Positions 11,277-35,626 of a stretch of DNA of 43,842 nucleotides are shown piece after piece (within the stretch, counting starts at the first letter, position 1; the number at the start of each line of letters is the position of its first letter). Source of the DNA: a virus. A program made the position numbers and the translations under genes. The notes under the pieces are model-generated. The model did no database searches, was not told where the DNA came from, and saw nothing but the letters and a program-made list of their open reading frames with translations. The stretch lies in the IMG/VR virus record IMGVR_UViG_3300025652_000142, positions 1 to 43,842 of that record; one strand, given 5' to 3'.

Positions 11277-12501
11277 TACCAGTTAAAAAACTCATAATAT
11301 CTTCTTGTGCTTCGGTTTTAGCATTAGAAGCTTCTCTTAAACTATTAACATTAGTAGCACGTTCTTGTATTTTATCAGTAGCTATATCTGTTGGTGAATC
11401 AACATCTAATGTTGCTGCATAATCTGGATTAATTTTTTCCATTGTTACATAATTTTCTATTGGACGTTCAGTAACTGGACTAACACTACTAGATATTCTT
11501 TCAGCAACTGTATTCATAGTTTCATTCATACGTTCAAATTTATCTTTAGCAACTAATGATTGTAGATATGGATTATATTGTTCTGCCATTTGAATAGCAG
11601 TTTCAGATTTTTCTTCATCTGATGGATAATAACCAAACGTTGCATAGTAAGATTCGTCATAAAATTCTTCATATTGTAATTTTGTCTTTGGTCCAAATTG
11701 TTGTCTAATCATATCTTCTGATTTTTTGTCAGTTAACAATTCAGATTGTTTTTTAGCTTCACTTGCATTATCTAACATACGTGTAAAAGCATTGCCAAAT
11801 ATTTCTTTTTGTAAAATAATTGCAGGTGGTGTCGTGTTGTTTGCTCTATCTCTATAATCTAAACCACCAAAATAAGTATTAACGTTATAATTAAACGTTC
11901 TATTATTAATAGTGTCTGTTATATTAGTTAATGCATTTGAAACATTTGTAGAATTTTCATGCCAATCATTCATTTGACTATCTGCATATAAAAATATTTC
12001 ATTAATAAAATTAGTTGTTTGTATTCCTTTTTCGCCACCAAGTTCTTCACCAAAATATTCTTCTGTTTTTAATCCAGAAGCTATTGCATCTCTTTGCATT
12101 CTATCTACTGTTGATGTATTTAATGAAAAAATTAAAGAAGCAACAAAATCATTTTGAAAATGTCCGTTAAAACTAACAGTATTGTAAACTCCTTCTTCAT
12201 TGTATATAGGTTCATTATTATCATCTAATATAGGCATAAGTCTAGGATTATCTAATACAGTTCTATTACCTATACTTGTAAGTGATTGATTGTTAGGTAC
12301 ATTGTCTATTATTGGAAAAACATTAGGACCAATTTGTTCAATTGCATTTACTATATCTAAAGTTATTCCAGAAGTTATAGCTTTACTTAATATCTGTTGT
12401 TGTTCAGGTGTTAAAGTGTAATCATCATATATAGAATCAAAATTAAAATCATTAGGTAAACCTACTGTATCTATAATCTCTTGTTTTTGTTCAGGTGTCA
12501 T
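11269..12501 (-). CDS. Large unknown virion-module protein (410 aa)
   Basis: No family recognised. Acidic, Asn/Thr rich and soluble, with the start overlapping the stop of the giant gene in TAATG. The N-terminus has tandem T-P-E-Q-K-Q and T-P-E-Q-Q-Q segments at residues 2-7 and ~32-37, a small internal repeat. Probably a virion protein by context. Confidence 0.5.
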   Translation of the reverse strand: MTPEQKQEIIDTVGLPNDFNFDSIYDDYTLTPEQQQILSKAITSGITLDIVNAIEQIGPNVFPIIDNVPNNQSLTSIGNRTVLDNPRLMPILDDNNEPIYNEEGVYNTVSFNGHFQNDFVASLIFSLNTSTVDRMQRDAIASGLKTEEYFGEELGGEKGIQTTNFINEIFLYADSQMNDWHENSTNVSNALTNITDTINNRTFNYNVNTYFGGLDYRDRANNTTPPAIILQKEIFGNAFTRMLDNASEAKKQSELLTDKKSEDMIRQQFGPKTKLQYEEFYDESYYATFGYYPSDEEKSETAIQMAEQYNPYLQSLVAKDKFERMNETMNTVAERISSSVSPVTERPIENYVTMEKINPDYAATLDVDSPTDIATDKIQERATNVNSLREASNAKTEAQEDIMSFLTGNG

Positions 12502-15500
12502 TAATTATCTCTCATATCTGTAATAAATTCTAGCTTATCTCCATCATTATTATATAGTTTAATAAAGACGCCATTCCAAATATACCAGAAATCAGGGTTT
12601 TTTTCTATAATCTTGTATGCTTGTTGAGCAACAGAAACTCTGACTGCATATGCTTCTTCAGTAGTACTTTCTAACCACCAAGTTTTACTATCAGTTCTAC
12701 TGTATTCTTTTGATATTTCTTCAGCATCTTCAACTACTTTAATAAAATCAAGTAATCCTTTTGCTGATGGTTGTTGCATAGCTTTTGTATTTGTAGGCCA
12801 TAAATATCTAATTTCATTCCAAATTTCTCCTGCAGGTATAAAAGTTTGTATACCATAATTACTTAAAAATCCAGGATTAGAATATGCTAAAGCATTTCTT
12901 GCATCTCTTTTTTTAACTACTTTTTCTGCATAATTTAATGTAGTATCTTCATCAATTTGTTTTGCTAATCTTTCATATCTAAACCAAGCAACAGAATCGT
13001 TTTGTTGTAATGCAAATTTATCAGGTCTTTTAGTAACACTAAACCATAAATTAGAATAAGTACGTTCTGCTTCAGGATTATCAGGAACTAAATACGCTGC
13101 ACTTTTTGGAAAAAGAGTAAGTAACTCATTATTTTTTCTTAGAAAATCAATATTTCTTTTTTCAAAAACTGCTTTTGTACCATCAGTAGATTCTTTACTA
13201 CCAGTAGTTATATATGGATGGTCTATACCATATTTAACATAAAATTCTTCTGCAGCAATAGTTGAATCAGAATTGTTTTTTATTAGTATTTTATTGTATT
13301 CATTAGCTAACATTTGTGTTGCCCACCATTTACCATTTTTATCTTTAACTGTAAATATAGGTTTAAATCCAGTAGGAAGTATTTCCTGTGCTATAGCTCT
13401 AATTAAAAATAATGATTTAGCTTTATGAGCTGAGTATTGTAACAAAGCATCTGTTAATGTTTGTTCTGTTAGCTCGCCTTTTGCTGGACCTTGTTCACTA
13501 TATAATGCTACTTTACGTCTACCATTCCAATCTTCATTTATATATCTAATATATTTATCTAATACACCAGACTTTAATAGTCTTTCTTCATCGTAACCTG
13601 CACGTATATTACTATAAATATCAATAGTTGTTTCTGCTCTCATACTGTCATATTCATCAGTAGAAGTTAACCATTCTTTAACATTATTATCAGAATCAAT
13701 TCTTCTTTCAGAACCTGGTCCTGAAGATAACCCCTCTGCAAGTAATTCAAATGGGTTTCCAGCTGCTATTAATTTTTTAGCAAAAGGAGGTGGAGATAGT
13801 ATTGCTTCAGTTATTTCATCTGGTGGAGCAAACGGCCCAAAAAACTGTTCTCTTAGTTCCATTTTTGCATCCATTTTATCAAATACTTTATTTAAAGCAA
13901 AAGCTACTATTGAGTTAGGACCTGGAGTTAAACTTGTACTTAATAAGTTTACACCTGCTATATTGCCAGCTGCAGTCATTCCTGCTTGTGCTTGTTCTAA
14001 TCCTAAATCTTTTGGAAATACTAAATTACTTATTTTTGAATTAAAAGGATATAAAAATAAATCGTCACCACTACCATTAGGGTCTGGTGAAAACCATCCT
14101 TGTCCTTGAAAATTATACGCACCAGCAGATGATTTTAGTCCTTTGTATAATAAATTACCCTCACGTATTTTATAAGGATTTTTAGCAGCTAATCTTCCCC
14201 AAGTTTTTCCCATTTCAAACCAAACTTCAGGGAAAGGAAATATATTTCTAGTTATTTCAGAAAGTTGATGTCTTTCAGAAGCATCATATAATAACTGTTG
14301 AGTACCTTTTAAACCAAACTGACTAGCTAATTCGCTTGTTGCTCTATAACTTCCTGTTTTACCAGATTGACCTAGTAGTTGCATACCAACAAGTTCATCA
14401 ATAGCTTTTTTTGGTATCTTTGCATCTTTAAATTCTTTAATATATTTAGTTTGTAATTTTTTAGTATACGTAGGAAACTGTGCAGCAACATACATATATC
14501 TGTATTGTTTAAAAGCAGGTGACCTATTAAGTCTTGATAGTGGTTCTGTTAACAAAAAGTTAAAAGATGTATTCCAAAATTCTGACATTAAATCAGCTCC
14601 TCTACCTAAACTTGTAGAAGCTAATCTACTTTTTTTAGGCATCATTACTTTACCAAAATCAACTGATACAATTTCATCACTACCAGCAATATAATTTTGT
14701 ATTTCTCTATAAATAGCTTGTTGTTGTTTTCTACCCCAATTTTTTACAAAAGGTGCTTTTTCCATATCAGGCATCATAGAAATGTAATCATCTGGATTAG
14801 TAACATCTCCTCCATGTTTTAATAATTTATCTGTCCATAAAGCTTCTCTTATTTGTAAGTTTCCATTATTTTCTATTGCATTATGATTAAAAATAAATGT
14901 TCCGTCAATTTGTTTAAATCTGTCTACACCTTCTTGCATTACATGACCTGTTCGCATTCTTATATCAGCTTCTAAAACAGATAAATATTCCATCATTTTG
15001 TCATGTTTAGAAACAATTTGTCTATATCTATCTCCTGTTTCTTGTATTAAATCTAATGCCATATCTTTTGCTTCTCTAGTTCTAGCCCAAGCTTCTAATT
15101 CAGGTCCCCAACCTAATCTTGCTACAACTCTTGACATTGGATTATTTCTTATATGTTGCAATTGTGTATTTATTGCTGATGCTCCTGCAATACTTTTTGC
15201 ATCTACAGCTACCCAATTGTATCCTTTAACACTCTGACTTCTATAATCTATACCTTGATAAGACCAGTTTGCATTTACAGCTTCACTAAAATATTGTGAA
15301 CTTAATATTTCATTAGTATCGTTACCAGAATCCATAAATTTTTCTACTAATTTTCTAGTACGACTACGTTTAGGAAGTTGTCCATAAGAATATACCCATG
15401 ATAAATAATCTCCAGGATTTGTAAATATACCGTCTAATCCTTCAAATATAAATCTAGCTTGTTCTTCTAAACCTACTCTAAATGATAAAGCTTGTTTAAT

Positions 15501-18356
15501 AATTTTTGTTGGTTTAAATATTAATGAGTTCCAACCATCAAACAAACTACTTATTAAATCGTTTTCTATTTTGTTAGTTGGTATAAAACCATATTTAAAA
15601 GGATTTTTACCTTCAGCTATTAAATTATTCATATATCGTAAAGGAGCTTTAAAATGGTCAGGGTCATCAACAGCATCTGCAACTTCAAAAAAGAATCCTT
15701 TTTGTATTCTATTAAGTCTTCTTACTGGGTATAAAGCTGCTCCATTATTTGCAGCTTCAGACAATTTAACTAAAGAAGGAACATAAATTTTTGTACCATC
15801 TTCTCTTTTAACAAATTTAGTAAAAGAAGTAAAAACTTCATCGCCCATTTCATCAGCTAAAAATGATTTTAATTGCTGTTGACTATTTTTTATATCTTCT
15901 AAACCTTTTTTAAATAATTTTTCACCATAATCACCTTTAGTACCAGCAATTAATTTTCTATCATATTCCATTAATCTTGTAGAAAATGCATCTAAATCAT
16001 CTACAACGCTTCCACCAGATTTAGTTTTTCTAACATTTGTTATAAAATCATTTAAAACTTTATCTGCCATTCTGCTTGTGTAACCTACATTTTCTACATG
16101 ACGAACTATATCAACAAATGCTTGATTTCTATTTTTATAACTTAAATTACTACCAGGTAATGTACTAAATTTCTTTGTCCAATATGGACTCATACCTTGT
16201 GTAAATGCTGAACTAAAACCTAAATTACTTGAGTAATCTAAAACACCTAATTCTTCCCAATCAGTTAAAGCTTTTTTATTTAAAGTTACTGTACCATCTA
16301 CAACTCTATTAAAAGCATTATCACCTTTTAATAATTTAACTCCTTTAGATGTAAATTTACCAATATTATCAACACTTCTAATAACTTTATTTCCTAAACC
16401 ACCAGCTATTGAACCTATAGACCTAAGTCCTGGGTCTGTACCTGTTAAACCTTTTAATGCAGCATTAGTTAAAGCAGAACTACCTTTAGGAATACTATTT
16501 AATATAAACGGTGTTACTGTTTTTTCTGCTACATAACCTTCACTTAATGCTCTACGTATAATATTTTCTGTTTTGGCAAAAGTTTTACTTTTAGCAACTT
16601 CTACTAAAACTTCTTCTGGTGCATCAACTAACCAAGGATTTTTTGCAAGTTTAGCAACGTTTGATTCTTCAGTCATACCTTGTATTGATTTTCTAACAAA
16701 AGTTTTTTGCATTAAATCATTAACTGTATTTGATAAAAACTTAGGTGTTTTACCTAAAAGTAATCCATATTTTTTTCTAGCTGCACCGTCTGCTTTCATA
16801 GCAGGTTTAATATAACCTTTATAAATATCACTTTGTAATGCTCTATATCTAAAAGGAGCGTCTGTAGTATAGTCAAATACTTCAGCATTAATATTTGGAC
16901 CAACTTTGCTTTGACCTGTAAAAGGATTTACATATTTTTCAATAGGTTCTAATATTTCTTTTGCTTTGTCGTGAGTAAACAATTTTTTATTTTTAAGCAT
17001 GTCAGGTAATCTATCTACTTGACCAGCAAGAATAGAACCTTTTTTAATTGTTTTAGTAATTGCACCTAGACCTAAACTAGATATTATTCTATTTTCTGCA
17101 TCAATAGCACCAGAAACAACATTGTAAGCTTTAGAACCTACTGGTTCAAACTTAGATGCTTCGTATCTACCAATTGAATAAGGTATTCTTACTCCAGCAT
17201 TTTCATTACGTGCTTGTATTTCTTCATAATCTTGAGCTAAATCAGGACTATATACAAATCTAGTTCCAGCAAATGCATTAATCATGTTAGGTTTTTGTAT
17301 TGATGTCCAATTAATTTCTGAACCTTCATCAGGTTTTTTTATTGGTTCTCCAATATTTGCATAAATTATTTCTTCAGCTTGTTTAGGTGTATAACCAAAA
17401 ACATTTACCAAAGAATTATATTCAGGCATATCTTCAGCAATTAAACTTTCAAATGACAAAACATTATTTCTGTTGTAGTTAACTGGTAAGTTTTGTACTA
17501 CTCTAGTTAAAGCTTCTTTAGCATATGCTTCTCCAGCTAAGTTTTTAGCTTCTCCAATCCAACGTAACAACTGTTTAGTTTCTCCTATAAATCCTAGTTT
17601 TTCTCCTACTTCTTCTTGTGTCAAACTTAAATTAATTGGAATATTTGATTGTGCATACTCTTTTGTATAACCAGATTCTAAATATCTATCATAAGCATTC
17701 ATTTGTTGTACGTAAGCCCACACACGTCCTCTTGGTTTATAAAAACCCATTGGGTCTTTCCAAGATACTGTTCTACCTTCTTCAGGTGTTTCATTTTGTG
17801 GAAAAGGACTCCATATAACAGCATTTTCATCAAACCAATCTGCAGCTGCTACAGCCCATAAACTTGTTTGAGTATCTGCAAATTTGCTTATATTAGGTTG
17901 AAAATCAATTTTGCCAATAACAGGAAATTCTCTGACACCATCTTCTGAATATATTATTTTTTCTAAAGAATCAGGAACTAATTTATTACCATAAAAAAAT
18001 GCAGTAGAGGCTAATCCTCCAGCAATATCAAAAAGATTCATTGTCATGTCGTCATTGTATTTATTTGTTTGAAATCTATTTTTAACTGTTTCCCAATCAT
18101 TAGCTGCTTGGACACAATATTGTAATGAATACTCGTCACATAAATCTTGCATAGCTTGAGATGATGGAGGTACTTCTAACTGTGCCATAGGTATTAATAC
18201 TTCAGCAGGAAGTATTGCATACTTACTTGTATATTCTTCTAATCTTTCAGTAAAACCTGGATTACTTTTTATGTAATCTTTTGCAGATTTTAATTTATTA
18301 TTTAAAGCATTTGTGTTGTTTCCAACATTTTCTAAGTCAAAATAACTTAATACCAT
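12501..18356 (-). CDS. Giant 1951-aa virion protein (probable internal/ejection protein)
   Basis: A single uninterrupted frame of 5.9 kb, about 13% of the window. No catalytic motif was recognised: I looked for lysozyme/transglycosylase, protease and polymerase signatures. The protein is lysine/asparagine rich, largely helical, without signal peptide, and with repeated aromatic-rich segments. Giant proteins next to the portal in short-tailed phages are often packaged inside the head and injected with DNA (T7 gp16, N4 vRNAP), so that is the best guess. Its order (portal, two small genes, this gene) is preserved with coupled starts. Other possibility: a polyprotein-like scaffold of the inner core. 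Confidence 0.65.
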   Translation of the reverse strand: MVLSYFDLENVGNNTNALNNKLKSAKDYIKSNPGFTERLEEYTSKYAILPAEVLIPMAQLEVPPSSQAMQDLCDEYSLQYCVQAANDWETVKNRFQTNKYNDDMTMNLFDIAGGLASTAFFYGNKLVPDSLEKIIYSEDGVREFPVIGKIDFQPNISKFADTQTSLWAVAAADWFDENAVIWSPFPQNETPEEGRTVSWKDPMGFYKPRGRVWAYVQQMNAYDRYLESGYTKEYAQSNIPINLSLTQEEVGEKLGFIGETKQLLRWIGEAKNLAGEAYAKEALTRVVQNLPVNYNRNNVLSFESLIAEDMPEYNSLVNVFGYTPKQAEEIIYANIGEPIKKPDEGSEINWTSIQKPNMINAFAGTRFVYSPDLAQDYEEIQARNENAGVRIPYSIGRYEASKFEPVGSKAYNVVSGAIDAENRIISSLGLGAITKTIKKGSILAGQVDRLPDMLKNKKLFTHDKAKEILEPIEKYVNPFTGQSKVGPNINAEVFDYTTDAPFRYRALQSDIYKGYIKPAMKADGAARKKYGLLLGKTPKFLSNTVNDLMQKTFVRKSIQGMTEESNVAKLAKNPWLVDAPEEVLVEVAKSKTFAKTENIIRRALSEGYVAEKTVTPFILNSIPKGSSALTNAALKGLTGTDPGLRSIGSIAGGLGNKVIRSVDNIGKFTSKGVKLLKGDNAFNRVVDGTVTLNKKALTDWEELGVLDYSSNLGFSSAFTQGMSPYWTKKFSTLPGSNLSYKNRNQAFVDIVRHVENVGYTSRMADKVLNDFITNVRKTKSGGSVVDDLDAFSTRLMEYDRKLIAGTKGDYGEKLFKKGLEDIKNSQQQLKSFLADEMGDEVFTSFTKFVKREDGTKIYVPSLVKLSEAANNGAALYPVRRLNRIQKGFFFEVADAVDDPDHFKAPLRYMNNLIAEGKNPFKYGFIPTNKIENDLISSLFDGWNSLIFKPTKIIKQALSFRVGLEEQARFIFEGLDGIFTNPGDYLSWVYSYGQLPKRSRTRKLVEKFMDSGNDTNEILSSQYFSEAVNANWSYQGIDYRSQSVKGYNWVAVDAKSIAGASAINTQLQHIRNNPMSRVVARLGWGPELEAWARTREAKDMALDLIQETGDRYRQIVSKHDKMMEYLSVLEADIRMRTGHVMQEGVDRFKQIDGTFIFNHNAIENNGNLQIREALWTDKLLKHGGDVTNPDDYISMMPDMEKAPFVKNWGRKQQQAIYREIQNYIAGSDEIVSVDFGKVMMPKKSRLASTSLGRGADLMSEFWNTSFNFLLTEPLSRLNRSPAFKQYRYMYVAAQFPTYTKKLQTKYIKEFKDAKIPKKAIDELVGMQLLGQSGKTGSYRATSELASQFGLKGTQQLLYDASERHQLSEITRNIFPFPEVWFEMGKTWGRLAAKNPYKIREGNLLYKGLKSSAGAYNFQGQGWFSPDPNGSGDDLFLYPFNSKISNLVFPKDLGLEQAQAGMTAAGNIAGVNLLSTSLTPGPNSIVAFALNKVFDKMDAKMELREQFFGPFAPPDEITEAILSPPPFAKKLIAAGNPFELLAEGLSSGPGSERRIDSDNNVKEWLTSTDEYDSMRAETTIDIYSNIRAGYDEERLLKSGVLDKYIRYINEDWNGRRKVALYSEQGPAKGELTEQTLTDALLQYSAHKAKSLFLIRAIAQEILPTGFKPIFTVKDKNGKWWATQMLANEYNKILIKNNSDSTIAAEEFYVKYGIDHPYITTGSKESTDGTKAVFEKRNIDFLRKNNELLTLFPKSAAYLVPDNPEAERTYSNLWFSVTKRPDKFALQQNDSVAWFRYERLAKQIDEDTTLNYAEKVVKKRDARNALAYSNPGFLSNYGIQTFIPAGEIWNEIRYLWPTNTKAMQQPSAKGLLDFIKVVEDAEEISKEYSRTDSKTWWLESTTEEAYAVRVSVAQQAYKIIEKNPDFWYIWNGVFIKLYNNDGDKLEFITDMRDN

Positions 18357-25839: not shown

Positions 25840-26565
25840 ATGGCAAACGATTGCTGGGAATTAGTAGAATCTGTATTGGGCAATAGCCGTAGAGTATTAC
25901 TTTATGGCCCACCTGGTACAGGTAAGACATACAGTGCTGTTAAAACTAATACGCCTAAAGCGTATAGTAAATCAGCAGGAAAAGAAATAGATAATATCTA
26001 TCAAATAACTATGACAGAAGATACTGCTAGTGCAAACTTAGAAGGTTTTTACAAACCATCTAGCACAGGTACTTTTGAATGGCATGACGGTATTGCAATA
26101 CAATCATGGAAAAATGGTGGTCGCCTTGTAATTAATGAGATAGACCATGCGTCACCAGACGCAATGACGTTTCTACATGCTATTTTAGACGACCAAGAAA
26201 TAGCAATGTTGACATTAAATAACGATACAAAAGAAACAGTTAGACCAGCTGATGGCTTTCAAGTTATAGCTACAACTAACAGTCCACCAGAGTCATTACC
26301 TTTGGCTTTGAAAGACAGATTTCCTGTAAAAATATATGTTGACAGTATACACCCTAAAGCAATGGAACAGTTTCCAGATGAGTGGCACGGTGTAATTAAT
26401 GATACAACATTAGTAGAAGATGATGAAGAACGTATTTCAGTACGTGCATGGACAGAGTTCTTTAACTTACAAGCTAATGGCTTTAGTCCAGAACAAGCAG
26501 CTAAATTAGTCTTTGCAGACAAAGCAGAAGAATTAATAGATGCTGTTACGTTAGCACGTGCTTAA
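25840..26565 (+). CDS. MoxR/CobS-like AAA+ ATPase
   Basis: 241 aa with GAAAGGAG ribosome site. Walker A G-P-P-G-T-G-K-T (23-30), Walker B R-L-V-I-N-E-I-D (95-102), sensor 1 A-T-T-N-S-P (144-149) and a conserved arginine in L-K-D-R-F (160, arginine-finger region). This is the dynein-related/AAA_5 type that forms hexameric rings and works with a VWA partner, as in MoxR-VWA and CobS-CobT. Its stop overlaps the start of exactly such a VWA gene. Role inferred: ATP-driven remodelling of a target selected by the partner. In phages similar genes are often called cobS, but no cobalamin genes are present here. Confidence 0.85.
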   Translation: MANDCWELVESVLGNSRRVLLYGPPGTGKTYSAVKTNTPKAYSKSAGKEIDNIYQITMTEDTASANLEGFYKPSSTGTFEWHDGIAIQSWKNGGRLVINEIDHASPDAMTFLHAILDDQEIAMLTLNNDTKETVRPADGFQVIATTNSPPESLPLALKDRFPVKIYVDSIHPKAMEQFPDEWHGVINDTTLVEDDEERISVRAWTEFFNLQANGFSPEQAAKLVFADKAEELIDAVTLARA

Positions 26566-27985
26566 TAGTAAAGCTTATCCATATCCAGAAATTGTTACTG
26601 GTGAGAAGTGGGAAGTAGTAGGTACTATTAACAACAGTCCCGATGGTTCTACAGATAATCTCAACAGACAAATGACAGTACCTCTCGATAGAGAGTGTAC
26701 AGAATGTGGTATCAATCATAGTCGTATGATACGTAGACACGAACTTGGTCATGCCAAGTGGAGTCCAAAGACTATGGGTAAGCTAAAACCAGGTGTACGT
26801 GCAGAGGCTGTTCATGTACTAGAAGAAGTTAGAGTTAATCATCTTCTATATGAAAACAAGCTTGCATTATCTGAACCATCAAAGTGTTTAGATGTAATAC
26901 AACAAGAAACTATGAAATTAGTTTACGAATCAGGTATTGCAGAGATAATACTTATGGGTTTAGCTAGTAAATGGAAAGTACCAGATATTGATACTAACCG
27001 TAGATATGCTAGTTATAAATACAATGATGAGTGGGTTGTAATGTCAGCTTGTTTCAACATGATAAGAAATGATGATACAGTTACTGATTATCGTAAACAA
27101 CAGATTATATATGCAGAAAGAATTATTGCTAGATTTTTTCAAAGTATTACTAATCATGGTTATGGTCAAACTATTAGTTATCGTAAAGTACAAAAGTATG
27201 CAGAACCATTGAGTGCAATACTTGACATGTTCAGAGATGCACCTACACAAGATGAAGTATACAAACCTAAACCAAAATCACATACCGCACCTGGTATTGA
27301 TGAGAGTGAAGGGAATGCTGAAGAATCTAATGAGTTAGGTGGTGGTTCTTTAGAACAACGTACAAGAGACGACCTAGCAGAGTTATTGTATAGAAGTACT
27401 CAAGGTACAGGTAGATGGGGTGAAATGTTTACGCATCAACCACCATTATCTGTTAATTTACAAAGTAGACTTAAAAACGGTAGGTCGTATAGACCAGCTG
27501 ACTTTGGTTACAATCCAAAATACATTAACAGATACTGTATAGATAAGAAAATATTCAAACAAAAAATGACTGCACTTGGTGGCACAATACTTATTGATGC
27601 ATCAGGTTCTATGTCATTTAATGGTGAAGATATTTTAGAAGTTATGCAGCAATTACCTGCTGTTACTATTGCTATGTACAATGGTACAGGTGACACAGGT
27701 GATTTACGTATCATTGCTAAAAATGGTAAACGTGTAACTGAAAAGTATTTAGATAACCATTCAGGTTACGGTAATGTTGTAGATGGTCCTGCTTTAGAAT
27801 GGCTAGGAACACAACCAGCTAGAAGAATATGGGTATCAGACATGCATGTGTTTGGTGCGCATGGTGATACTGCTGGTTTTAATCTAATGGCTGATGTAAA
27901 TAAAATCGTTAGAAAATACAATATTATTAACCTTAAGAACATAGAAGAAGTAAAGGAACATGCATTAAAACTGAATGTAGTATAG
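26558..27985 (+). CDS. VWA protein with N-terminal HExxH metallopeptidase-like domain
   Basis: 475 aa from a GTG start overlapping the AAA+ gene by 8 bp (translational coupling; ATG at residue 39 is the alternative start). C47/C50 and then H61-E-L-G-H65 with Glu89/Glu90 following at the spacing of a zincin third ligand. The middle is helical, then an acidic linker (~245-270). The C-terminal VWA domain has a full MIDAS: D347-A-S-G-S351, with D409 and D428. Resembles CobT-like and DUF2201-type proteins in which a metallopeptidase-like domain is joined to VWA. Predicted partner of the AAA+ ring, possibly a regulated protease or chaperone. Confidence 0.8.
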   Translation: MLNSKAYPYPEIVTGEKWEVVGTINNSPDGSTDNLNRQMTVPLDRECTECGINHSRMIRRHELGHAKWSPKTMGKLKPGVRAEAVHVLEEVRVNHLLYENKLALSEPSKCLDVIQQETMKLVYESGIAEIILMGLASKWKVPDIDTNRRYASYKYNDEWVVMSACFNMIRNDDTVTDYRKQQIIYAERIIARFFQSITNHGYGQTISYRKVQKYAEPLSAILDMFRDAPTQDEVYKPKPKSHTAPGIDESEGNAEESNELGGGSLEQRTRDDLAELLYRSTQGTGRWGEMFTHQPPLSVNLQSRLKNGRSYRPADFGYNPKYINRYCIDKKIFKQKMTALGGTILIDASGSMSFNGEDILEVMQQLPAVTIAMYNGTGDTGDLRIIAKNGKRVTEKYLDNHSGYGNVVDGPALEWLGTQPARRIWVSDMHVFGAHGDTAGFNLMADVNKIVRKYNIINLKNIEEVKEHALKLNVV

Positions 27986-28265: not shown

Positions 28266-28506
28266 GACAAGTATGAAAGATATAGATAAACTTCTGAAAG
28301 AAGCTGAACATGGTAAGACAAGTTCAGTAGCTGACAGAATAACAGATGAAGCAATGCCATTCTGGCAAGGATGTATAGAACGATTAACTTCTGGACATAA
28401 CATAAAACCATATGTTGTACACAGATTGTTAAGAGAAGAATATGGTATTAAAATATCAGAATCAGCTATACGTAATCACTTTATGAAAGTAGTAAACAAT
28501 GAGTAA
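28264..28506 (+). CDS. Small HTH-like protein (80 aa; start may be 28273)
   Basis: No ribosome site precedes either ATG; the promoter spacing favours the ATG at 28273 (77 aa, leaderless). The C-terminal half, V-H-R-L-L-R-E-E-Y-G-I-K-I-S-E-S-A-I-R-N, is a good helix-turn-helix, so a DNA-binding regulator is likely. The N-terminal K-D-I-D-K-L-L-K-E-A-E tag is nearly the same as in the next gene, suggesting duplication or a common docking helix. Overlaps that gene by 8 bp. Confidence 0.65.
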   Translation: MTSMKDIDKLLKEAEHGKTSSVADRITDEAMPFWQGCIERLTSGHNIKPYVVHRLLREEYGIKISESAIRNHFMKVVNNE

Positions 28507-29554
28507 AGACGTTGATAAACTAATAGCAGAAGCTGAATCACTGAAAATTCAGGAACTAAAATCTGATAATCTTAAGTTACTTAAGCAATTAGATAAAGCT
28601 AAAAATAAAAAAGCTGATTTAATTGAGGCTATGTATGATGCTGTGCGAATGAATGTATCTACATGGGCTAAACCTAATGTTCCTAAACCAACATTAAGTA
28701 AAGCTAATAAGAATGAAGAAATTGCAGTAGCTATATTATCAGATATACAGTTAGCTAAAATAACACCAGATTATGACACAGCAATAGCAGAGAAAAGAGT
28801 TGTTGCATATGCACATAAGATAGTAGAACTAGCTAATCTTCAAAGAAATGCACACCCTGTTAACAAATGCGCAGTATTAGTTGCAGGTGACATTGTAGAA
28901 GGAGAGCTTATATTCCCAGGACAATCACACTTGATAGACGCAAGTCTGTATAGTCAAGTTACAATTGATGGCCCTAGAATATTGACACAGTTTTTTGATG
29001 TACTGTTAGCTAACTTTAAAGAAGTAGAAGTTACATGGGTTATAGGTAATCACGGAAGCCTTGGTGGTCGTGCAAGAAAAGACTATCACCCAGACAGCAA
29101 CAGTGACCGTATGCTAGGAAAGATAATGTCAATGATATATGATAAAGATAAAAGAATTTCTTTTCATGTACCAGACAGTACAACAGAAGACCATTGGTTT
29201 GGTATAGCAGACCTTGGTAAAGACTGTAAATTCTTTGTATGGCATGGAGATAATGTACGAGGACATAGCGGTTTTCCTTGGTATGGTTTCGGTAAAAAAC
29301 TATTAGGTTGGAAAGCATTGGCATCAAGAAATCTTATGCCTGACTTTGACTATGCAATAGCTGGACACTTCCATACACCTACAACAATGTATGTTAATGA
29401 TGTACGTTTATGGGTTAATGGAAGCACAGAAAGCTACAATAGTTACGCTATGGAGCAGCTAGCAAGCATGGGTAGACCATGTCAATGGCTATTATTCTGT
29501 AAACCAGGACACGGAGTAACTGCTGAATACCTTGTAAAACTGGATAAAGTATAG
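28499..29554 (+). CDS. Calcineurin-like metallophosphoesterase
   Basis: 351 aa. Metal-binding motifs are in order: D82-I-Q84 (usual D-x-H has Gln), G-D131, G-N-H185, H249-G-D and G-H-F-H (289-292). Residues 1-45 are a coiled-coil tag with K-D-V-D-K-L-I-A-E-A-E. The fold is that of SbcD/Mre11-type nucleases and related phosphodiesterases, and phages often carry such a gene beside recombination genes. Substrate not evident: DNA end processing or nucleotide/cyclic-nucleotide cleavage are both possible. Confidence 0.85.
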   Translation: MSKDVDKLIAEAESLKIQELKSDNLKLLKQLDKAKNKKADLIEAMYDAVRMNVSTWAKPNVPKPTLSKANKNEEIAVAILSDIQLAKITPDYDTAIAEKRVVAYAHKIVELANLQRNAHPVNKCAVLVAGDIVEGELIFPGQSHLIDASLYSQVTIDGPRILTQFFDVLLANFKEVEVTWVIGNHGSLGGRARKDYHPDSNSDRMLGKIMSMIYDKDKRISFHVPDSTTEDHWFGIADLGKDCKFFVWHGDNVRGHSGFPWYGFGKKLLGWKALASRNLMPDFDYAIAGHFHTPTTMYVNDVRLWVNGSTESYNSYAMEQLASMGRPCQWLLFCKPGHGVTAEYLVKLDKV

Positions 29555-29561
29555 GTATACT
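29532..29561 (+). promoter_or_regulatory. Putative promoter inside the end of the phosphoesterase gene
   Basis: TTGTAA (29532-29537), 18 bp, TATACT (29556-29561), nine bases before the ATG at 29571, which has no ribosome site. The palindrome ATACTACATATAGTAT (29557-29572 region) overlaps it and resembles the ACTATATATAG repeats of the control region. Confidence 0.4.
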
Positions 29562-29570
29562 ACATATAGT

Positions 29571-29726
29571 ATGTCAAATACAATAAATGAGTCTGTTAAG
29601 AGAGTCTCTATTGAGTACGCAGGGTATGGTTCACAGCCATATTTTGTAGTTAATACTGATAATGGTATTAAATTTATTCCAATAGAACATGGAGTGACTA
29701 GACTTACAGACATAGTAAATAAATAA
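29571..29726 (+). CDS. 51-aa unknown protein, probably leaderless
   Basis: ATG nine bases after a -10-like TATACT and without a Shine-Dalgarno sequence. The product is beta-rich (V-S-I-E-Y-A-G-Y-G; Y-F-V-V-N-T-D-N-G-I-K-F-I-P-I), probably a small beta-hairpin or barrel protein. Not recognised. It is followed by a 17-bp hairpin. Confidence 0.55.
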   Translation: MSNTINESVKRVSIEYAGYGSQPYFVVNTDNGIKFIPIEHGVTRLTDIVNK

Positions 29727-29727
29727 C

Positions 29728-29769
29728 TTTATTTATTAGCCGTTTTTTCGGAACGGCATAATAAATAAA
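29728..29769 (+). promoter_or_regulatory. 17-bp hairpin ahead of the Rad52-like gene
   Basis: TTTATTTATTA (29728-29738) with TAATAAATAAA (29759-29769), and GCCGTT (29739-29744) with AACGGC (29752-29757); one bulged A, 7-nt loop. The GAAAGGA ribosome site begins a few bases after. No T-run follows, so not a classical terminator. Confidence 0.7.
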
Positions 29770-29785
29770 CAAAGAAAGGAATGTT

Positions 29786-30337
29786 ATGACTAATAACAAC
29801 AAACTGTTGTCCCCATTTCCACAGGAGCTAGTTAAAAAAGCACCTGCTGGTAAGTTCGGGGATTACGTACCACACGCTAACTATGTAGAAAGACTACGTG
29901 ATAGTGGTGTTACATACTCTTGGTCATGTGAACCTGTATATGGTACACATAACGGAGAGAAAAGAATTGTCGGAGCTAAAGGTACTATAACCATAGAAGG
30001 TATGGGTAGTTACGATGGCTTTGGTGATGTTGATACCTTCAAGCTTGGCAATGCTAAGTTTAATGACGGTAACAACCTTAAAGACGCAGAATCAGACGCG
30101 TTCAAGCGTGCATGTATGAGGTTCGGTCTAGGTGTAGAGCTATGGTCTGGTAGTAAACAGACTGAAGAAGAAGCTACATCTATTGCACCTGATGGTTATA
30201 CGCAGGAACAAGCAGACAAAGATGCTATGGTAGAAGTTACCAAAGTAGATATGCGTTTGAAAGAAAACAAGATGTCTAAAGAAGACAAAGCTGCAGCAGC
30301 AGCAATTATGGACAGTATCTTAGGTACTGAATCATGA
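29786..30337 (+). CDS. Rad52-family single-strand annealing protein
   Basis: 183 aa with AAAGGA ribosome site. Features of the Rad52/Sak family: an early V-P-H-A-N-Y-V-E-R-L-R segment (~residues 28-38), a beta-sheet core (Y-S-W-S-C-E-P; G-A-K-G-T-I-T-I), then the signature A-E-S-D-A-F-K-R-A-C-M-R-F-G-L-G (~101-116). The C-terminus is an acidic/Ala-rich tail likely used for protein contacts. It would anneal complementary ssDNA for phage recombination and replication restart. Overlaps the zinc-ribbon gene that follows (ATGA), a likely partner. Confidence 0.85.
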   Translation: MTNNNKLLSPFPQELVKKAPAGKFGDYVPHANYVERLRDSGVTYSWSCEPVYGTHNGEKRIVGAKGTITIEGMGSYDGFGDVDTFKLGNAKFNDGNNLKDAESDAFKRACMRFGLGVELWSGSKQTEEEATSIAPDGYTQEQADKDAMVEVTKVDMRLKENKMSKEDKAAAAAIMDSILGTES

Positions 30338-30930
30338 GTCAGGATGTACAATTTATAGCTGAAACAGTACAAAATATTTGTACGAACGTAGAATCACAAG
30401 AAACATTACACAAAATTTTAGGTTCTGCAAATCAATATGTACAGTTAAAGAAGTTTGATACAGATAAAACAAGATGGACAGATGAACAGCTTGATATGTA
30501 TTTTGCTTATGTAGAAAAATTAGTAAGTATGCCAACAGTAGTTACGCAAGAATCTTTTGATACAATGTCAATAGAAGAAAAGTTAAACGCTGTAGGTTTA
30601 GAAGTACAAGAAGTTACTAATAATGTGCAACCTGCTGGAGATATGTTGGGAGGCATAGTAAATAAAATGGAACAACAAAATAAATACAGAGATGACCTTA
30701 AGTGTCCTTTCTGTCAACAAATGGTATATGACAATAGAAATAATAAAAAGTCAGACAAAAGTCCAGACTTTGTTTGCAGTACTAATGACCCTGTTACCTG
30801 TGGTGGTCACAGTGGTAAGTGGCGTAAGTCCTGGTGGGTAGACAACAGTGATATACCTGTAGAGTGGAACTTAGATGGTGAAGTCAAGACAGCACCCAAC
30901 GATGCTGGCGAAGACTTAGCACCATTCTAA
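30334..30930 (+). CDS. Zinc-ribbon protein coupled to the annealing protein (198 aa)
   Basis: ATG overlaps the Rad52-like stop. Residues 1-110 are helical; C124-P-F-C127, C148 and C156 form a zinc ribbon; the tail is W-rich then acidic, ending in D-L-A-P-F. An acidic tail with terminal Phe resembles SSB-type C-termini that recruit partners. Candidates: ssDNA-binding protein or annealase loader. No family recognised. Confidence 0.6.
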   Translation: MSQDVQFIAETVQNICTNVESQETLHKILGSANQYVQLKKFDTDKTRWTDEQLDMYFAYVEKLVSMPTVVTQESFDTMSIEEKLNAVGLEVQEVTNNVQPAGDMLGGIVNKMEQQNKYRDDLKCPFCQQMVYDNRNNKKSDKSPDFVCSTNDPVTCGGHSGKWRKSWWVDNSDIPVEWNLDGEVKTAPNDAGEDLAPF

Positions 30931-31031
30931 TGAATAGATTAGAGCGCAGGGCTGCTAAATCAAAAAAGAAAAGAAGATATCAAGGACTTAGTAAGAAACA
31001 AATCTTACGTCCTGATGTTATTGATAGATAG
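30930..31031 (+). CDS. 33-aa highly basic peptide
   Basis: ATG overlaps the preceding stop (TAATG). Twelve of 33 residues are Arg/Lys (E-R-R-A-A-K-S-K-K-K-R-R). Tightly coupled, so probably translated; may bind nucleic acid. Could still be a chance frame. Confidence 0.4.
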   Translation: MNRLERRAAKSKKKRRYQGLSKKQILRPDVIDR

Positions 31032-31042
31032 AAAGGAAAGCT

Positions 31043-31309
31043 ATGATACCAAGTGCATTTAGAGGGGTAAACGTACCCGTATATGTAAAAAGTAAAACAC
31101 AGTTAGTAGCATGGGCGTTAGAAGAATTTCAAACTTCTGACCCTATAACTAACTGGGAGTTTGTAAGAGAATTATATTGCCATAGATTTGGTGGGATAAT
31201 CTTTAACCTACGTCAAGAAGGTTATGAAATTACAACAATTAAAACAAACACAAAAGGTTTAGTCAGTTATCGCTGCACTAAAGTACCTTCAAGAACTACC
31301 ATTAGCTAA
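31043..31309 (+). CDS. Helix-turn-helix protein (88 aa)
   Basis: GAAAGGAAAG ribosome site. Pattern of phage winged-HTH proteins: L-V-A-W-A-L-E, a helix, I-T-N-W-E-F-V-R-E, then F-G-G-I-I-F-N-L-R-Q-E-G-Y-E-I as recognition helix and wing start, with Y-R-C at the end of a beta strand. Probable DNA-binding regulator. Overlaps the lysozyme gene by one base. Confidence 0.7.
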   Translation: MIPSAFRGVNVPVYVKSKTQLVAWALEEFQTSDPITNWEFVRELYCHRFGGIIFNLRQEGYEITTIKTNTKGLVSYRCTKVPSRTTIS

Positions 31310-31743
31310 TGTTAGAGATAATAGTCGGGTGTTTGTTTCCAATGTTTCTAACACCTGACTTATTATCAGAGTACATAGAATGCAGAGAAGTAAAAGAACA
31401 AGTAGTTTATGTAGCACAATGGCACAGTTTAATTTCTACATACTTTGAACCAGAAGATGTAATACAAGCAATGACTATTGTTTATTGCGAAAGCAGAGGA
31501 AAAGAAACAGCAGTAGGTCGTAATACAAATGGGACAGATGACGTAGGCCTTTGGCAATTTAATGACAAAACTTGGGCTTGGTTAAAACCTAAGCTTGATA
31601 TAATAAGTAATAGAAAGAACCCTATAATATCGACAAAAGTAGCAGCTTGGTTAGTGTACAACGATGGTTGGCATCATTGGAATAGTAGCAAGCACTGTTG
31701 GAAAGGACACGATAATGTATTATTATCAATCAACACACAATGA
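31309..31743 (+). CDS. Lysozyme/transglycosylase-type muralytic enzyme
   Basis: 144 aa. A hydrophobic start (residues 3-18) could be a signal or signal-arrest segment. The catalytic pattern of lysozyme-like transglycosylases is clear: Y-C-E61-S-R-G, then D-V-G-L-W-Q-F-N-D (78-86) and a late W-L-V-Y-N-D-G-W...W (114-124), with Cys60/Cys130 as a possible disulphide. Cleaves cell-wall glycan; unusual in being placed in the early arc, away from the holin. It may be a virion- or export-linked enzyme, or the main endolysin. Confidence 0.75.
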   Translation: MLEIIVGCLFPMFLTPDLLSEYIECREVKEQVVYVAQWHSLISTYFEPEDVIQAMTIVYCESRGKETAVGRNTNGTDDVGLWQFNDKTWAWLKPKLDIISNRKNPIISTKVAAWLVYNDGWHHWNSSKHCWKGHDNVLLSINTQ

Positions 31744-31895
31744 AAACACAAATTGAAGATATATACAATATGGTATGTATTGTATGTAACATTACATGTT
31801 ATCTAACAATCTATCCAGACAATAAAGTTTGTGATTCTTGTGCAGAGTTTATCTTAAATGATATAGAGGAGCAGAAAAAATATGAACAAAAATAA
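31740..31895 (+). CDS. 51-aa zinc-finger miniprotein
   Basis: ATG overlaps the lysozyme stop (ATGA). C13-x2-C16 (C20) and C31-x2-C34 form a zinc ribbon, followed by an E/K-rich helix. Overlaps the next gene by 14 bp. Confidence 0.55.
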   Translation: MKTQIEDIYNMVCIVCNITCYLTIYPDNKVCDSCAEFILNDIEEQKKYEQK

Positions 31896-32088
31896 AACAT
31901 TAAGCATTGTTAATACAAATATATTTACAAACCCACAATACATGAAGACATGGGGTAAACAATTTGTAGAAGCATGCGGTAGTACAGAAATGAACATTCC
32001 ACCTGATATGGGTAAGTTACGTTGGCTTATGGAAAAGTTTGTTAAAGATTACAACGTACAATTAGGAGAGTTAGGAGAGGAAGAATGA
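31882..32088 (+). CDS. Unknown 68-aa early protein
   Basis: GAGGAG ribosome site eight bases upstream of the ATG. Helical C-terminus (L-R-W-L-M-E-K-F-V-K-D-Y) with acidic end. No family recognised. Stop overlaps the next ATG (ATGA). Confidence 0.5.
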   Translation: MNKNKTLSIVNTNIFTNPQYMKTWGKQFVEACGSTEMNIPPDMGKLRWLMEKFVKDYNVQLGELGEEE

Positions 32089-32255
32089 GTGATATATCAG
32101 TATCAGAAGCAGATGGTGTAGTTCTTATTAACGAATTAGAAAAACGTTTTGGATTTATGCCAATAATAGTTAAGAATGAACAAGGCAAAGAAGAAGTCAA
32201 GTGTTTAGTACCTAAGTTTACTGTAACAATTGACCCTATAGATGAGGAGGAATAA
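32085..32255 (+). CDS. 56-aa unknown acidic protein
   Basis: ATGA overlap at the start (with GGAGAGG upstream) and TAATG overlap at the end. A helix (V-V-L-I-N-E-L-E-K-R-F) followed by beta strands (F-M-P-I-I-V-K; F-T-V-T-I-D) and an acidic end. Double coupling supports translation. Confidence 0.55.
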   Translation: MSDISVSEADGVVLINELEKRFGFMPIIVKNEQGKEEVKCLVPKFTVTIDPIDEEE

Positions 32256-32821
32256 TGACTATGAATACTCGTTTTGCTAAATCAAAAGAAATAAACGTTA
32301 GTACGCCATTAGAAGACAAACAAAATTGGCATGCTAAGTTAGACACCTGGAAAAATAATGCTAATAATAAAAATGTTTTTGGTGGTAGAAGATTCTTAGG
32401 TGTTAATAAAAATGGTAATGAAGTATGGATTTCTTATGAACTTAGAAAAGATACTAAGGAATTAACTATATCAAGTACGCATAACTTAAGTTCATTAGAA
32501 AACAAAGGAGCTAAGCTTGCACCTAGACGTGTAACTGTTGGTCTTCATAAAGATGCACCTAAAGATTTAATGCGACCTGTTACACAAAAAGATATGGGTG
32601 AAATTACACCTAATACGTTGCGCTATATAAATAAATTGAGAGATATGGCAGACATGGGAATAGGTAAAGTAAATGGTAAATGTTCATCTCAATTGTTTAT
32701 GTTAGTATCTAATACTATTTATGAAGGTGATACTGATATAGATAAAGGTGACTGTAGATGGAACGACATAATAGAAACATGGGACTTGCCACCTGGAAAG
32801 TACCTAACAGTATATGGATAA
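32255..32821 (+). CDS. Unknown 188-aa early protein
   Basis: GAGGAGG ribosome site; a second ATG two codons on. Mixed alpha/beta with W residues and basic patches (P-R-R-V-T-V-G-L-H-K-D); no motif recognised. It lies immediately upstream of the SET-domain gene and overlaps it by 8 bp, so the two are co-translated and may be functionally linked (for example substrate and modifier). Confidence 0.55.
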   Translation: MTMNTRFAKSKEINVSTPLEDKQNWHAKLDTWKNNANNKNVFGGRRFLGVNKNGNEVWISYELRKDTKELTISSTHNLSSLENKGAKLAPRRVTVGLHKDAPKDLMRPVTQKDMGEITPNTLRYINKLRDMADMGIGKVNGKCSSQLFMLVSNTIYEGDTDIDKGDCRWNDIIETWDLPPGKYLTVYG

Positions 32822-33131
32822 AGAAGATAAATATAGACCTTTACCATCACACATGACAATACAACCTAGCAAAATAGAAGGTCTAGGTTTGTTTACACTT
32901 AAAGCAATAAAAGATTTAGAGACTTCTTTAGGTGTAACACATGTATGGTACGAAGAAGTAGGCAGTGTGTTTCGTACACCTTTAGGAGGTTTTATTAATC
33001 ATAGTGAAACACCTAACTGTGAAATTAAAAGATTCGATGGCACAATAGTTAGTCATTTGTTTCCTATTAAACCTATAAAAGCAGGGGAAGAAATCACATT
33101 AAAATATACTATGTACTCTGTTGATGAGTGA
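32814..33131 (+). CDS. Minimal SET-domain protein (putative lysine methyltransferase)
   Basis: 105 aa, essentially only a SET domain. S-K-I-E-G-L-G-L-F (19-27) is the N-terminal GxG SAM-binding motif; F-I-N-H-S-E-T-P-N-C (60-69) is the SET pseudoknot motif (usual R-F-I-N-H-S-C-x-P-N-C); I-K-A-G-E-E-I-T-L-K-Y (88-98) is the G-E-E-L-x-x-x-Y end motif with the catalytic tyrosine (Tyr98). No post-SET Cys cluster. Size is like the ~119-aa viral SET of chlorella viruses. Predicted to methylate lysine on a phage or host protein; substrate unknown. The C-terminus overlaps the HNH gene. Confidence 0.85.
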   Translation: MDKEDKYRPLPSHMTIQPSKIEGLGLFTLKAIKDLETSLGVTHVWYEEVGSVFRTPLGGFINHSETPNCEIKRFDGTIVSHLFPIKPIKAGEEITLKYTMYSVDE

Positions 33132-33399
33132 TATTGCACAGATAAGAGAACAGGCCTTTATACGGGCTGGAAACGTCTGTGAGTGGGCAAATTGTGACAG
33201 TGGTAAATGGTTAGAGCTAGCACACCTTAAAGATATAGGTATGGGTGGCAACAAAGCACGCAAATACAATGTAGATAATACAGCTGTACTATGTAAATGG
33301 CATCATGATATATACGATGGTCGTCAGTCTATGGGTACAAAAGTAGCGTATAGAGAACTGTTAGAAGCTTATTTAGATAGACACTCAGGTGTTAGCTAG
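33124..33399 (+). CDS. HNH endonuclease
   Basis: 91 aa from the ATG at 33124, overlapping the SET gene by 8 bp; a TTG one codon earlier is the less likely start. Zinc pair C19/C24 with C57 and H60/H61; core L-E-L-A-H34-L and Y-N-V-D-N52-T-A-V-L-C-K-W-H-H61-D match the beta-beta-alpha-metal HNH fold. Last gene of the early arc. In many phages an HNH protein assists terminase cleavage, or it may be a homing-type nuclease; here it is far from terL. Confidence 0.85.
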   Translation: MSDIAQIREQAFIRAGNVCEWANCDSGKWLELAHLKDIGMGGNKARKYNVDNTAVLCKWHHDIYDGRQSMGTKVAYRELLEAYLDRHSGVS

Positions 33400-34313: not shown

Positions 34314-35027
34314 TTAATATCCCTTGTATATATTATTACTTGATACTGTACCGTATATGTTAGCATCTTTTTTCTTTTTTTTCGGTTGTGACATAGCCCA
34401 TTTGCCTACATCATAAACATCTTTAGCTATCATTGCAGTACCTATACCAGGTATTAATCTTGATGCACCTTTAGCTGCAACTTTAACTATAGTTTTAGCA
34501 GTTTTTTGTGCAGTTTTATTTTTTAATTTATATTCTGAATATTCTTTAACACTCATATTTACACTATCTGCTGTAAAAGATGCAATAGATTTTTTTTCAA
34601 CTGCTTTTATAGCTTTAGTGTTTAAACCGTATTTAGTTGTATATTTAGAAGGGTCTGTTTTAAATTTAACTTTATTAGGTTTTACTTCTCCAGCTATAGT
34701 ATTTATAGATTTATTATTTTCAAATTTTCTTAAATTAGGTCCAGTAGCTTTACTTAAAAAAGTACCTTGACTACCAGGTTTTGGAGTATGCATTCCTTTA
34801 AAAGCACCATCTGATTTTTTTAATAACTTTCTTGGAGTAGGTGGCCCACTTAATTGTGTTGTAATTACATTGCTTGCTTTACGTCTTGCATATTCTGCAC
34901 CATATTTTTTAGCCCATGCTTTTTGACCAGCTTCTTGTCTAGCTTTTTTAGCAACTGCACGTCTTTTAGCTTCAGGACTATCTATGTAATCTTCTACTAA
35001 CCTGTAATCAGGTAATCTGTTAACCAT
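34314..35027 (-). CDS. Basic unknown protein (237 aa)
   Basis: Very Lys/Arg rich. Residues 15-55 form a basic helix (A-K-R-R-A-V-A-K-K-A-R-Q-E-A-G), the centre is disordered, and ~175-210 is a Gly/Ala/Ile hydrophobic helix (A-S-R-L-I-P-G-I-G-T-A-M-I-A-K) flanked by charged residues, as in membrane-penetrating peptides. Between holin and the DUF5675 gene. May be a DNA-binding virion or lysis accessory protein. Confidence 0.5.
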   Translation of the reverse strand: MVNRLPDYRLVEDYIDSPEAKRRAVAKKARQEAGQKAWAKKYGAEYARRKASNVITTQLSGPPTPRKLLKKSDGAFKGMHTPKPGSQGTFLSKATGPNLRKFENNKSINTIAGEVKPNKVKFKTDPSKYTTKYGLNTKAIKAVEKKSIASFTADSVNMSVKEYSEYKLKNKTAQKTAKTIVKVAAKGASRLIPGIGTAMIAKDVYDVGKWAMSQPKKKKKDANIYGTVSSNNIYKGY

Positions 35028-35626
35028 TAATCAATCTTTCTGCCATCAAGTTTAGCAGAAACAACCTGCAGTTCGCCACTTATCTCTTGTAATTTATCCA
35101 TTATACCTTGTGGTTGTATCATGTTAGGAGCTGTTTCGTTACTTAGTTCTATATCTCCATCATAATTTATGTATGTAACTTCTACATCTTGTCCTGATAC
35201 TATAGCTTCAGCTACACGAGGGTATACAAGTTTATATGCATCTCTACTTGACCCAATAAACCCATCTTTTTTTACTAAATTACTTTCTTGTGAATTTCCT
35301 AATAGCAAACAACCAGCTGTATTCTCATCTGTATTACCTGAATGCCATAAAATCCACTTAAAATTAGGTACATCTTGTACCCATATCATACCGTGATGCC
35401 AATCTGCACCGTATCTAGCTAGGTATTTGTTATGAAATCCACCTTCTTCACGTAGTTTAAGCTTGTATGTACCTGCAGGAATACGTGTTTCACCATATAC
35501 TTTAACGTCACGTTGTTCATCTTCTAAGGTATAACAAAGAAATGTTTTTTTTCCATTACTCGCATCAAGTAATATGCCTGATGTCGAATCTTTTCCTGAA
35601 CTAAATCTTAATACTTCTAATTTCAT
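35027..35626 (-). CDS. DUF5675-type protein (lysis/tail-associated)
   Basis: 199 aa. The core E-D-E-Q-R, G-E-T-R-I-P-A-G-T-Y, G-M-I-W-V-Q-D-V-P, I-L-W-H-S-G-N, T-A-G-C-L-L-L-G has the conserved His and Cys order (H...H-x-G-N...G-C-L) of DUF5675, a family related in pattern to L,D-transpeptidase-like cell-wall enzymes. The last 40 residues are a separate helix (M-D-K-L-Q-E-I-S-G-E-L-Q). It lies next to the holin, so a wall-directed role is plausible but unproved. Confidence 0.7.
   Translation of the reverse strand: MKLEVLRFSSGKDSTSGILLDASNGKKTFLCYTLEDEQRDVKVYGETRIPAGTYKLKLREEGGFHNKYLARYGADWHHGMIWVQDVPNFKWILWHSGNTDENTAGCLLLGNSQESNLVKKDGFIGSSRDAYKLVYPRVAEAIVSGQDVEVTYINYDGDIELSNETAPNMIQPQGIMDKLQEISGELQVVSAKLDGRKID

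Follow-up and report, generated by a model that had tools for sequence, protein, structure and literature searches.

A compact SET-domain gene shared by marine phages and bacteria as a candidate protein methyltransferase gene

Why would a tailed phage carry a free-standing SET domain of only 105 residues, and which protein might such a domain modify? The question is raised by an open reading frame in IMG/VR virus record IMGVR_UViG_3300025652_000142, of which we analysed a single stretch of 43,842 nucleotides, here called the window. The gene lies on the plus strand at positions 32814-33131 and consists of an ATG start, 105 codons and a stop. A preliminary description, made from the letters alone, presented it as a stand-alone SET domain in a bacteriophage early operon. 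Profile searches and a structural model assign it to a compact SET family of phages and bacteria that corresponds to PHROG 28741.

SET motifs, conservation and predicted fold

Four SET motifs are distinguished in the literature, of which motif II reads YxG, motif III (R)FINHxxxPN and motif IV ELxxxY (PMC3585878). Motifs I, III and IV are intact in the window protein, and these include the three signatures that the preliminary description had quoted. Motif I, G23-L-G25-L-F27 (32880..32894, plus strand), is by homology the S-adenosylmethionine-binding loop (motif role from PMC3585878). Motif III, the pseudoknot strand, has the core F60-I-N-H-S-E-T-P-N-C69 and is preceded by a family signature, the whole stretch from R54 (R54-T-P-L-G-G-F) to C69 occupying 32973..33020 on the plus strand. 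Motif IV, G91-E-E-I-T-L-K-Y98, together with Y101, spans 33084..33116 on the same strand. Motif II is only half kept in G40-V-T-H43 (32931..32942, plus strand), where the glycine remains and the motif tyrosine is replaced by Ser38. The tyrosine is retained in 12 of 149 relatives, and Gly40 is invariant across the sampled family. As motif II varies within the compact family itself, we treated its degeneration here as sequence divergence and not as grounds for exclusion from the SET superfamily.

The SET-profile search proposed in the preliminary description was run, and Pfam SET (PF00856) matched the 105-residue protein with E=4.5e-8, over the gathering cut-off. PHROG 28741, which is annotated as 'unknown function', matched with E=6.5e-22 and aligned residues 7-103 of the protein to positions 3-98 of its 100. 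Both profiles matched every one of 66 diverse family members, with a best value of 5.2e-58 for the PHROG. Chance motif matches are ruled out as an explanation by these Pfam and PHROG matches and by the presence of relatives in at least 580 IMG/VR loci.

In an alignment of 131 relatives, G25, G40, H43, R54, P56, L57, G58, F60, N62, H63, N68 and E93 are invariant, G23 is kept in 129 and Y101 in 126, although conservation of RTPLGGF is inflated, and that of the GxG and ExxxxY stretches less so, because the sample was partly retrieved by pattern (TPLGGFIN and E[LI]xxKYxxY in genomes; RTPLGGFI and SxxxGxGxF in viral contigs). G40 and H43 lie outside every retrieval pattern. An N-terminal family signature, Y7-R-P-L-P11 (32832..32846, plus strand), is conserved at Y (130/131), L (131/131) and P11 (130/131). 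Since dN/dS against the closest homologues (88-97% protein identity) was 0.08-0.16, the comparison indicates that the gene is under purifying selection, which speaks for a working gene.

The AlphaFold2 model of the protein, built with a 66-sequence alignment, had a pLDDT of 89.6 and a pTM of 0.78. In a Foldseek search its best solved match was vSET (3kma_A; E=1.2e-5, TM 0.66, 27% identity), the chlorella-virus protein to which the preliminary description had likened it, followed by MLL, SETD, ASH1L and related SET domains. There were 128 PDB matches with E≤0.001, and the best 50 of these 128 were all SET or PR domains. A SET fold is confidently predicted. For the methyl-donor pocket and the pseudoknot the assessment was indirect, through the conserved motifs and the Foldseek matches. 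The preliminary description had made its identification depend on the SET pseudoknot, the SAM pocket and the catalytic tyrosine of close homologues; the model keeps the SET fold, and Tyr98, at the catalytic position, is kept in 130 of the 131 aligned sequences.

The protein is short for a SET domain. The spacing between the second GxG glycine and the NHS asparagine is 37 residues in the window protein and 34-41 in 141 relatives, compared with 52 in vSET and 64 in KMT2D (vSET and KMT2D by hand count from alignments). The stretch absent from the compact family corresponds to most of the SET-I insert, which usually forms one wall of the substrate groove. Some members also stop at Y101 and so carry no post-SET residues at all. 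Without the tyrosine of motif II and the bulk of SET-I, the protein must bind its substrate differently from characterised SET enzymes. The same two absences would suit a catalytically dead SET domain that serves as a protein- or nucleic-acid-binding module, like some PR domains, and three members weakly matched a PRDM2 PR-domain model. However, the GxG, the NHS motif and the catalytic-position tyrosine are near-invariant despite a mean column identity of only 41% across the family alignment; an inactive or solely binding protein is disfavoured, and we hold the dead-module reading to be improbable. Two further invariant residues, H43 and R54, are unusual and family-specific, and could be taken to suggest an enzyme that methylates a residue other than lysine. 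A precedent within the superfamily is SETD3, which methylates a histidine of actin (PMC8537074). Nearly all characterised SET enzymes, vSET included, use lysine, however, and we consider a non-lysine substrate very unlikely.

Genomic setting and the upstream neighbour

The window encodes an SU10-type major capsid protein and a terminase large subunit, both on the minus strand, which identifies the source as a tailed phage and bears out the placement of a stand-alone SET domain in a bacteriophage. The SET gene is placed towards the end of a run of plus-strand genes, which is convergent with the minus-strand structural genes. This run encodes a MoxR-type AAA ATPase, a phage exonuclease-like metallophosphoesterase, a Rad52/SSAP-like annealing protein, a wHTH protein and an SLT-domain protein; the last four, with small open reading frames, make up the remainder of the early-type operon at 28499..32255. 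Gene content and convergence with the structural genes make the label 'early operon' a reasonable one. No tRNA genes were found in the window, and terminase similarity pointed to no host, the best match being about 27% identity to Streptomyces phages.

Several other genes in the window deserve mention in their own right. The MoxR-type ATPase is followed by a 475-residue protein (together 25840-27985, plus strand) that looks on visual inspection like a VWA-domain partner and has no Pfam match; this pair is conserved in related phages and is unusual for a phage early region. The SLT transglycosylase-domain protein (31309-31743, plus strand) of the early-type operon and a DUF5675 protein (35027-35626, minus strand) among the late genes are possibly two cell-wall or entry/lysis functions. 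One of the structural genes' neighbours encodes a protein of 1951 residues (12501-18356, minus strand) to which neither Pfam nor PHROG gave a match at the thresholds applied.

The SET gene overlaps both of its neighbours. Upstream, a gene for a 188-residue protein (p188; 32255..32821, plus strand) overlaps its start by eight bases, and downstream the ATG of a small HNH endonuclease gene (33124..33399, plus strand; likely start, assigned by eye) overlaps its stop by eight bases. The order p188-SET-HNH is that of the window's own phage group, and p188 is directly upstream of SET in most close relatives of the window. Overlap and adjacency raise the possibility that the co-translated p188, which the preliminary description named as a possible substrate, is a dedicated substrate or partner of the SET protein. 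When the co-occurrence check suggested there was run, the two genes proved not to be obligately paired. SET stands next to HNH in the absence of p188 at L023, L025, L028, L029, L127 and L128, and SET occurs without p188 in more distant phages as well. Conversely, p188 adjoins HNH without SET at, for example, L228, L229 and L278, and 18 of 77 p188 loci show no SET, some of them near contig ends and several with HNH directly after. The 148 confirmed p188 loci are limited to relatives of the window's phage group, and no p188 relative was found among 50,697 phage records. Its predicted fold is confident (pLDDT 86.7), and a search of solved structures gave no match with E below 0.07. Obligate pairing of SET and p188 is rejected, being largely refuted by the occurrence of each without the other; the case for p188 as the substrate is correspondingly weakened, and we give a dedicated partnership hardly any weight. 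Because SET-HNH occurs without p188 and p188-HNH without SET, the three genes are best regarded as separable cargo. The HNH gene stays in place in several loci that lack SET or lack p188, and its site is a variable cargo site at the meeting point of the early and the convergent late genes.

Distribution in phages and bacterial chromosomes

The preliminary description implied that a SET domain in a phage is something exceptional. This is not supported, as the family is widespread in marine phages and is present on bacterial chromosomes, and phage SET proteins are already annotated in public databases. By tblastn, relatives were found in Pelagibacter phage Kolga EXVC016S, Prochlorococcus phages P-SSM7 (PSSM7_204) and P-RSM6 and marine virus AG-345-P14, and the copies in these four isolate or single-cell phage genomes carry no functional name. 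Two scans of IMG/VR confirmed relatives in at least 581 and at least 588 loci. A scan of 84,980 species genomes gave 28 loci, of which several are on plainly phage contigs and others are chromosomal. Across diverse phages the SET gene adjoins genes for an exonuclease, PAPS reductase, primase/helicase, baseplate wedge or terminase small subunit; these neighbours fall in many families, and no common partner gene was found beside SET among them. As a separate observation, phrog_34170 is a family of larger phage proteins with a SET-like domain in the C-terminal part.

Among the chromosomal copies, that of Porticoccaceae lies between fabB and a peroxiredoxin-like gene adjoining ssb, and that of Flavobacteriaceae lies between argC and proC, inside the arginine operon. 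In two flavobacterial genomes argC, SET and proC follow one another with near-zero spacing (L110, 5995-6288; L105, 4659-4952). In a SAR11-type single-cell genome the contig that carries SET also holds ccmF, ffh and rpsP, and a SAR86 genome carries SET on a 213-kb contig. Occurrence is sporadic in both family groups, with any match in 9 of 112 genomes for the Porticoccaceae group and in 12 of 199 for the flavobacterial one, two of the flavobacterial matches being weak and to a different SET type. In two Porticoccaceae genomes (L195 and L196) the SET gene is decaying, because only a partial, stop-containing match is left between the same fabB and peroxiredoxin-like neighbours; sister genomes are intact at this locus, which provides natural presence/absence pairs. 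Independently of these, a separate flavobacterial SET clade (L200-L208) has a C-terminal extension of about 20 residues, often ending in WEFEYEVSQ, and has HH instead of HS in motif III.

We built a quick maximum-likelihood tree of phage and bacterial relatives, without eukaryotic sequences, on 108 columns, and many of its forks are open. Cell and virus labels, which were set by context before the AU test, changed 8 times on this tree, compared with a mean of about 21.5 when shuffled. A single clade of all cellular rows was rejected (AU p=0.0036), and the SAR11-type chromosomal copy fell within a clade of cyanophages (99% SH-aLRT). Because the cellular copies do not form one clade, we conclude that the gene moved repeatedly between phages and bacteria; we claim no direction in general, except that a phage is the most likely source of the SAR11-type copy. 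A recent origin by transfer from a eukaryote was considered as well and is rejected, since the relatives sampled, from collections other than eukaryotic ones, are phage and bacterial.

Possible function and comparison with known systems

Judged from the conserved motifs and the predicted fold, the SET protein is probably an active protein methyltransferase. The phage would make a minimal SET-fold, S-adenosylmethionine-dependent enzyme from an early-type operon and would carry its gene as transferable cargo. S-adenosylmethionine would be held by the GxG loop and the NHS motif, and the substrate lysine would be threaded through a channel to Tyr98. As most of SET-I and the post-SET cap are absent, recognition of the target may fall to the family-specific conserved residues YxPLP, GxxH and RTPLGGF.

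The weakest step concerns the target, which may be a single host protein, conserved among marine bacteria of very different kinds. A conserved host target is favoured because unrelated phages of different hosts share SET without a common phage neighbour, and also because bacteria keep copies on their chromosomes; likewise, the diverse contexts show no fixed phage partner, which favours a host, or shared, target. We put the chances that the target is a host protein at roughly even. A component of translation, transcription or the nucleoid is a doubtful guess from the breadth of host range. The mark would more likely tune or protect its target than poison the cell, and a modulating, non-lethal effect is favoured because bacteria keep the gene on their own chromosomes.

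The enzyme might instead modify a phage protein, of the virion or of replication, in which case the copies on chromosomes would be left over from phage capture or repurposed. SET is indeed found mostly in phages, the SAR11-type copy sits within cyanophages, and two Porticoccaceae genomes hold decayed copies, with matches at the shared locus that are truncated or interrupted by stops. The phages that carry SET are unrelated and lack a shared neighbouring gene, however, and Porticoccaceae and flavobacterial lineages keep intact SET genes at stable chromosomal positions over considerable divergence. We therefore regard a phage target as unlikely, though less so than the other alternatives considered above. 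The most far-reaching reading, to which we give a probability of about one in three, is that a gene devoted to protein methylation is common to marine phages and is traded between them and their hosts. Its product, possibly from the smallest family of SET methyltransferases, would recognise its target with neither a post-SET cap nor the greater part of SET-I and, during infection, would mark a single conserved bacterial protein; some ocean bacteria would mark themselves likewise.

Lysine methylation of proteins has hardly been explored, whether in free-living bacteria or during phage infection. The tiny, widespread and easily expressed enzyme has chromosomal relatives, which makes the question directly testable. 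Once found, the methylated protein would show what is marked by many marine phages and by some of the bacteria they infect. As a SET domain that is possibly minimal, the protein also offers a test of which structural elements catalysis requires.

Phage SET annotations are already known. Stenotrophomonas phage Ps15 ORF62, annotated as a SET protein (PMC9025141), is a distant example from a tailed phage (E=7e-3 with a SAR86 family member as query). Entries named 'SET domain containing protein [uncultured Caudovirales phage]' (A0A6J5PTS6 and others) are also tailed-phage SET proteins, but their models are longer, at 128-263 residues, and a Manatee Spring Caudoviricetes record holds a tailed-phage SET annotated as vSET-like. 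We found no functional work on database-annotated phage SET proteins and no open papers on SET domains in cyanophages, in pelagiphages or as auxiliary metabolic genes. Nor did we find open papers that treat phage SET proteins as a family (subscription journals lie mostly outside this coverage). In open papers this family of compact SET proteins appears to be undescribed, as do its members on bacterial chromosomes and the exchange of the gene between phages and bacteria. PHROG 28741 matches the protein over the full length of its profile, although its entry describes neither the SET fold nor the bacterial members.

Bacterial SET effectors such as NUE and RomA/LegAS4 belong to the same superfamily, and family members are weakly similar to LegAS4. 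These effectors are larger and histone-directed inside eukaryotic hosts (PMC3980110), whereas the compact family has about 100 residues and occurs in phages and free-living marine bacteria. A Marseillevirus LCMAC101 SET protein of 100 residues (A0A481YSP5) is the best match among viral models (TM 0.76-0.79) and is similarly compact, but identity is only 25% and its source is a virus of eukaryotes. vSET (PBCV-1 A612L; 1n3j, 3kma), likewise a small stand-alone viral SET protein, is the best solved match by structure and by single-sequence search (27% identity) and has a similar G-E-E-I-T end with the catalytic tyrosine. The two differ in that the window protein, with its GxG-to-NHS spacing of 37 and not 52, is without most of SET-I and falls short of the vSET type in size and insert. 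They differ also in host: that of the window phage is a bacterium without histone H3, and H3K27 cannot be the target. PMC7019647 describes vSET as the smallest histone methyltransferase, and the compact family, if active, is smaller still.
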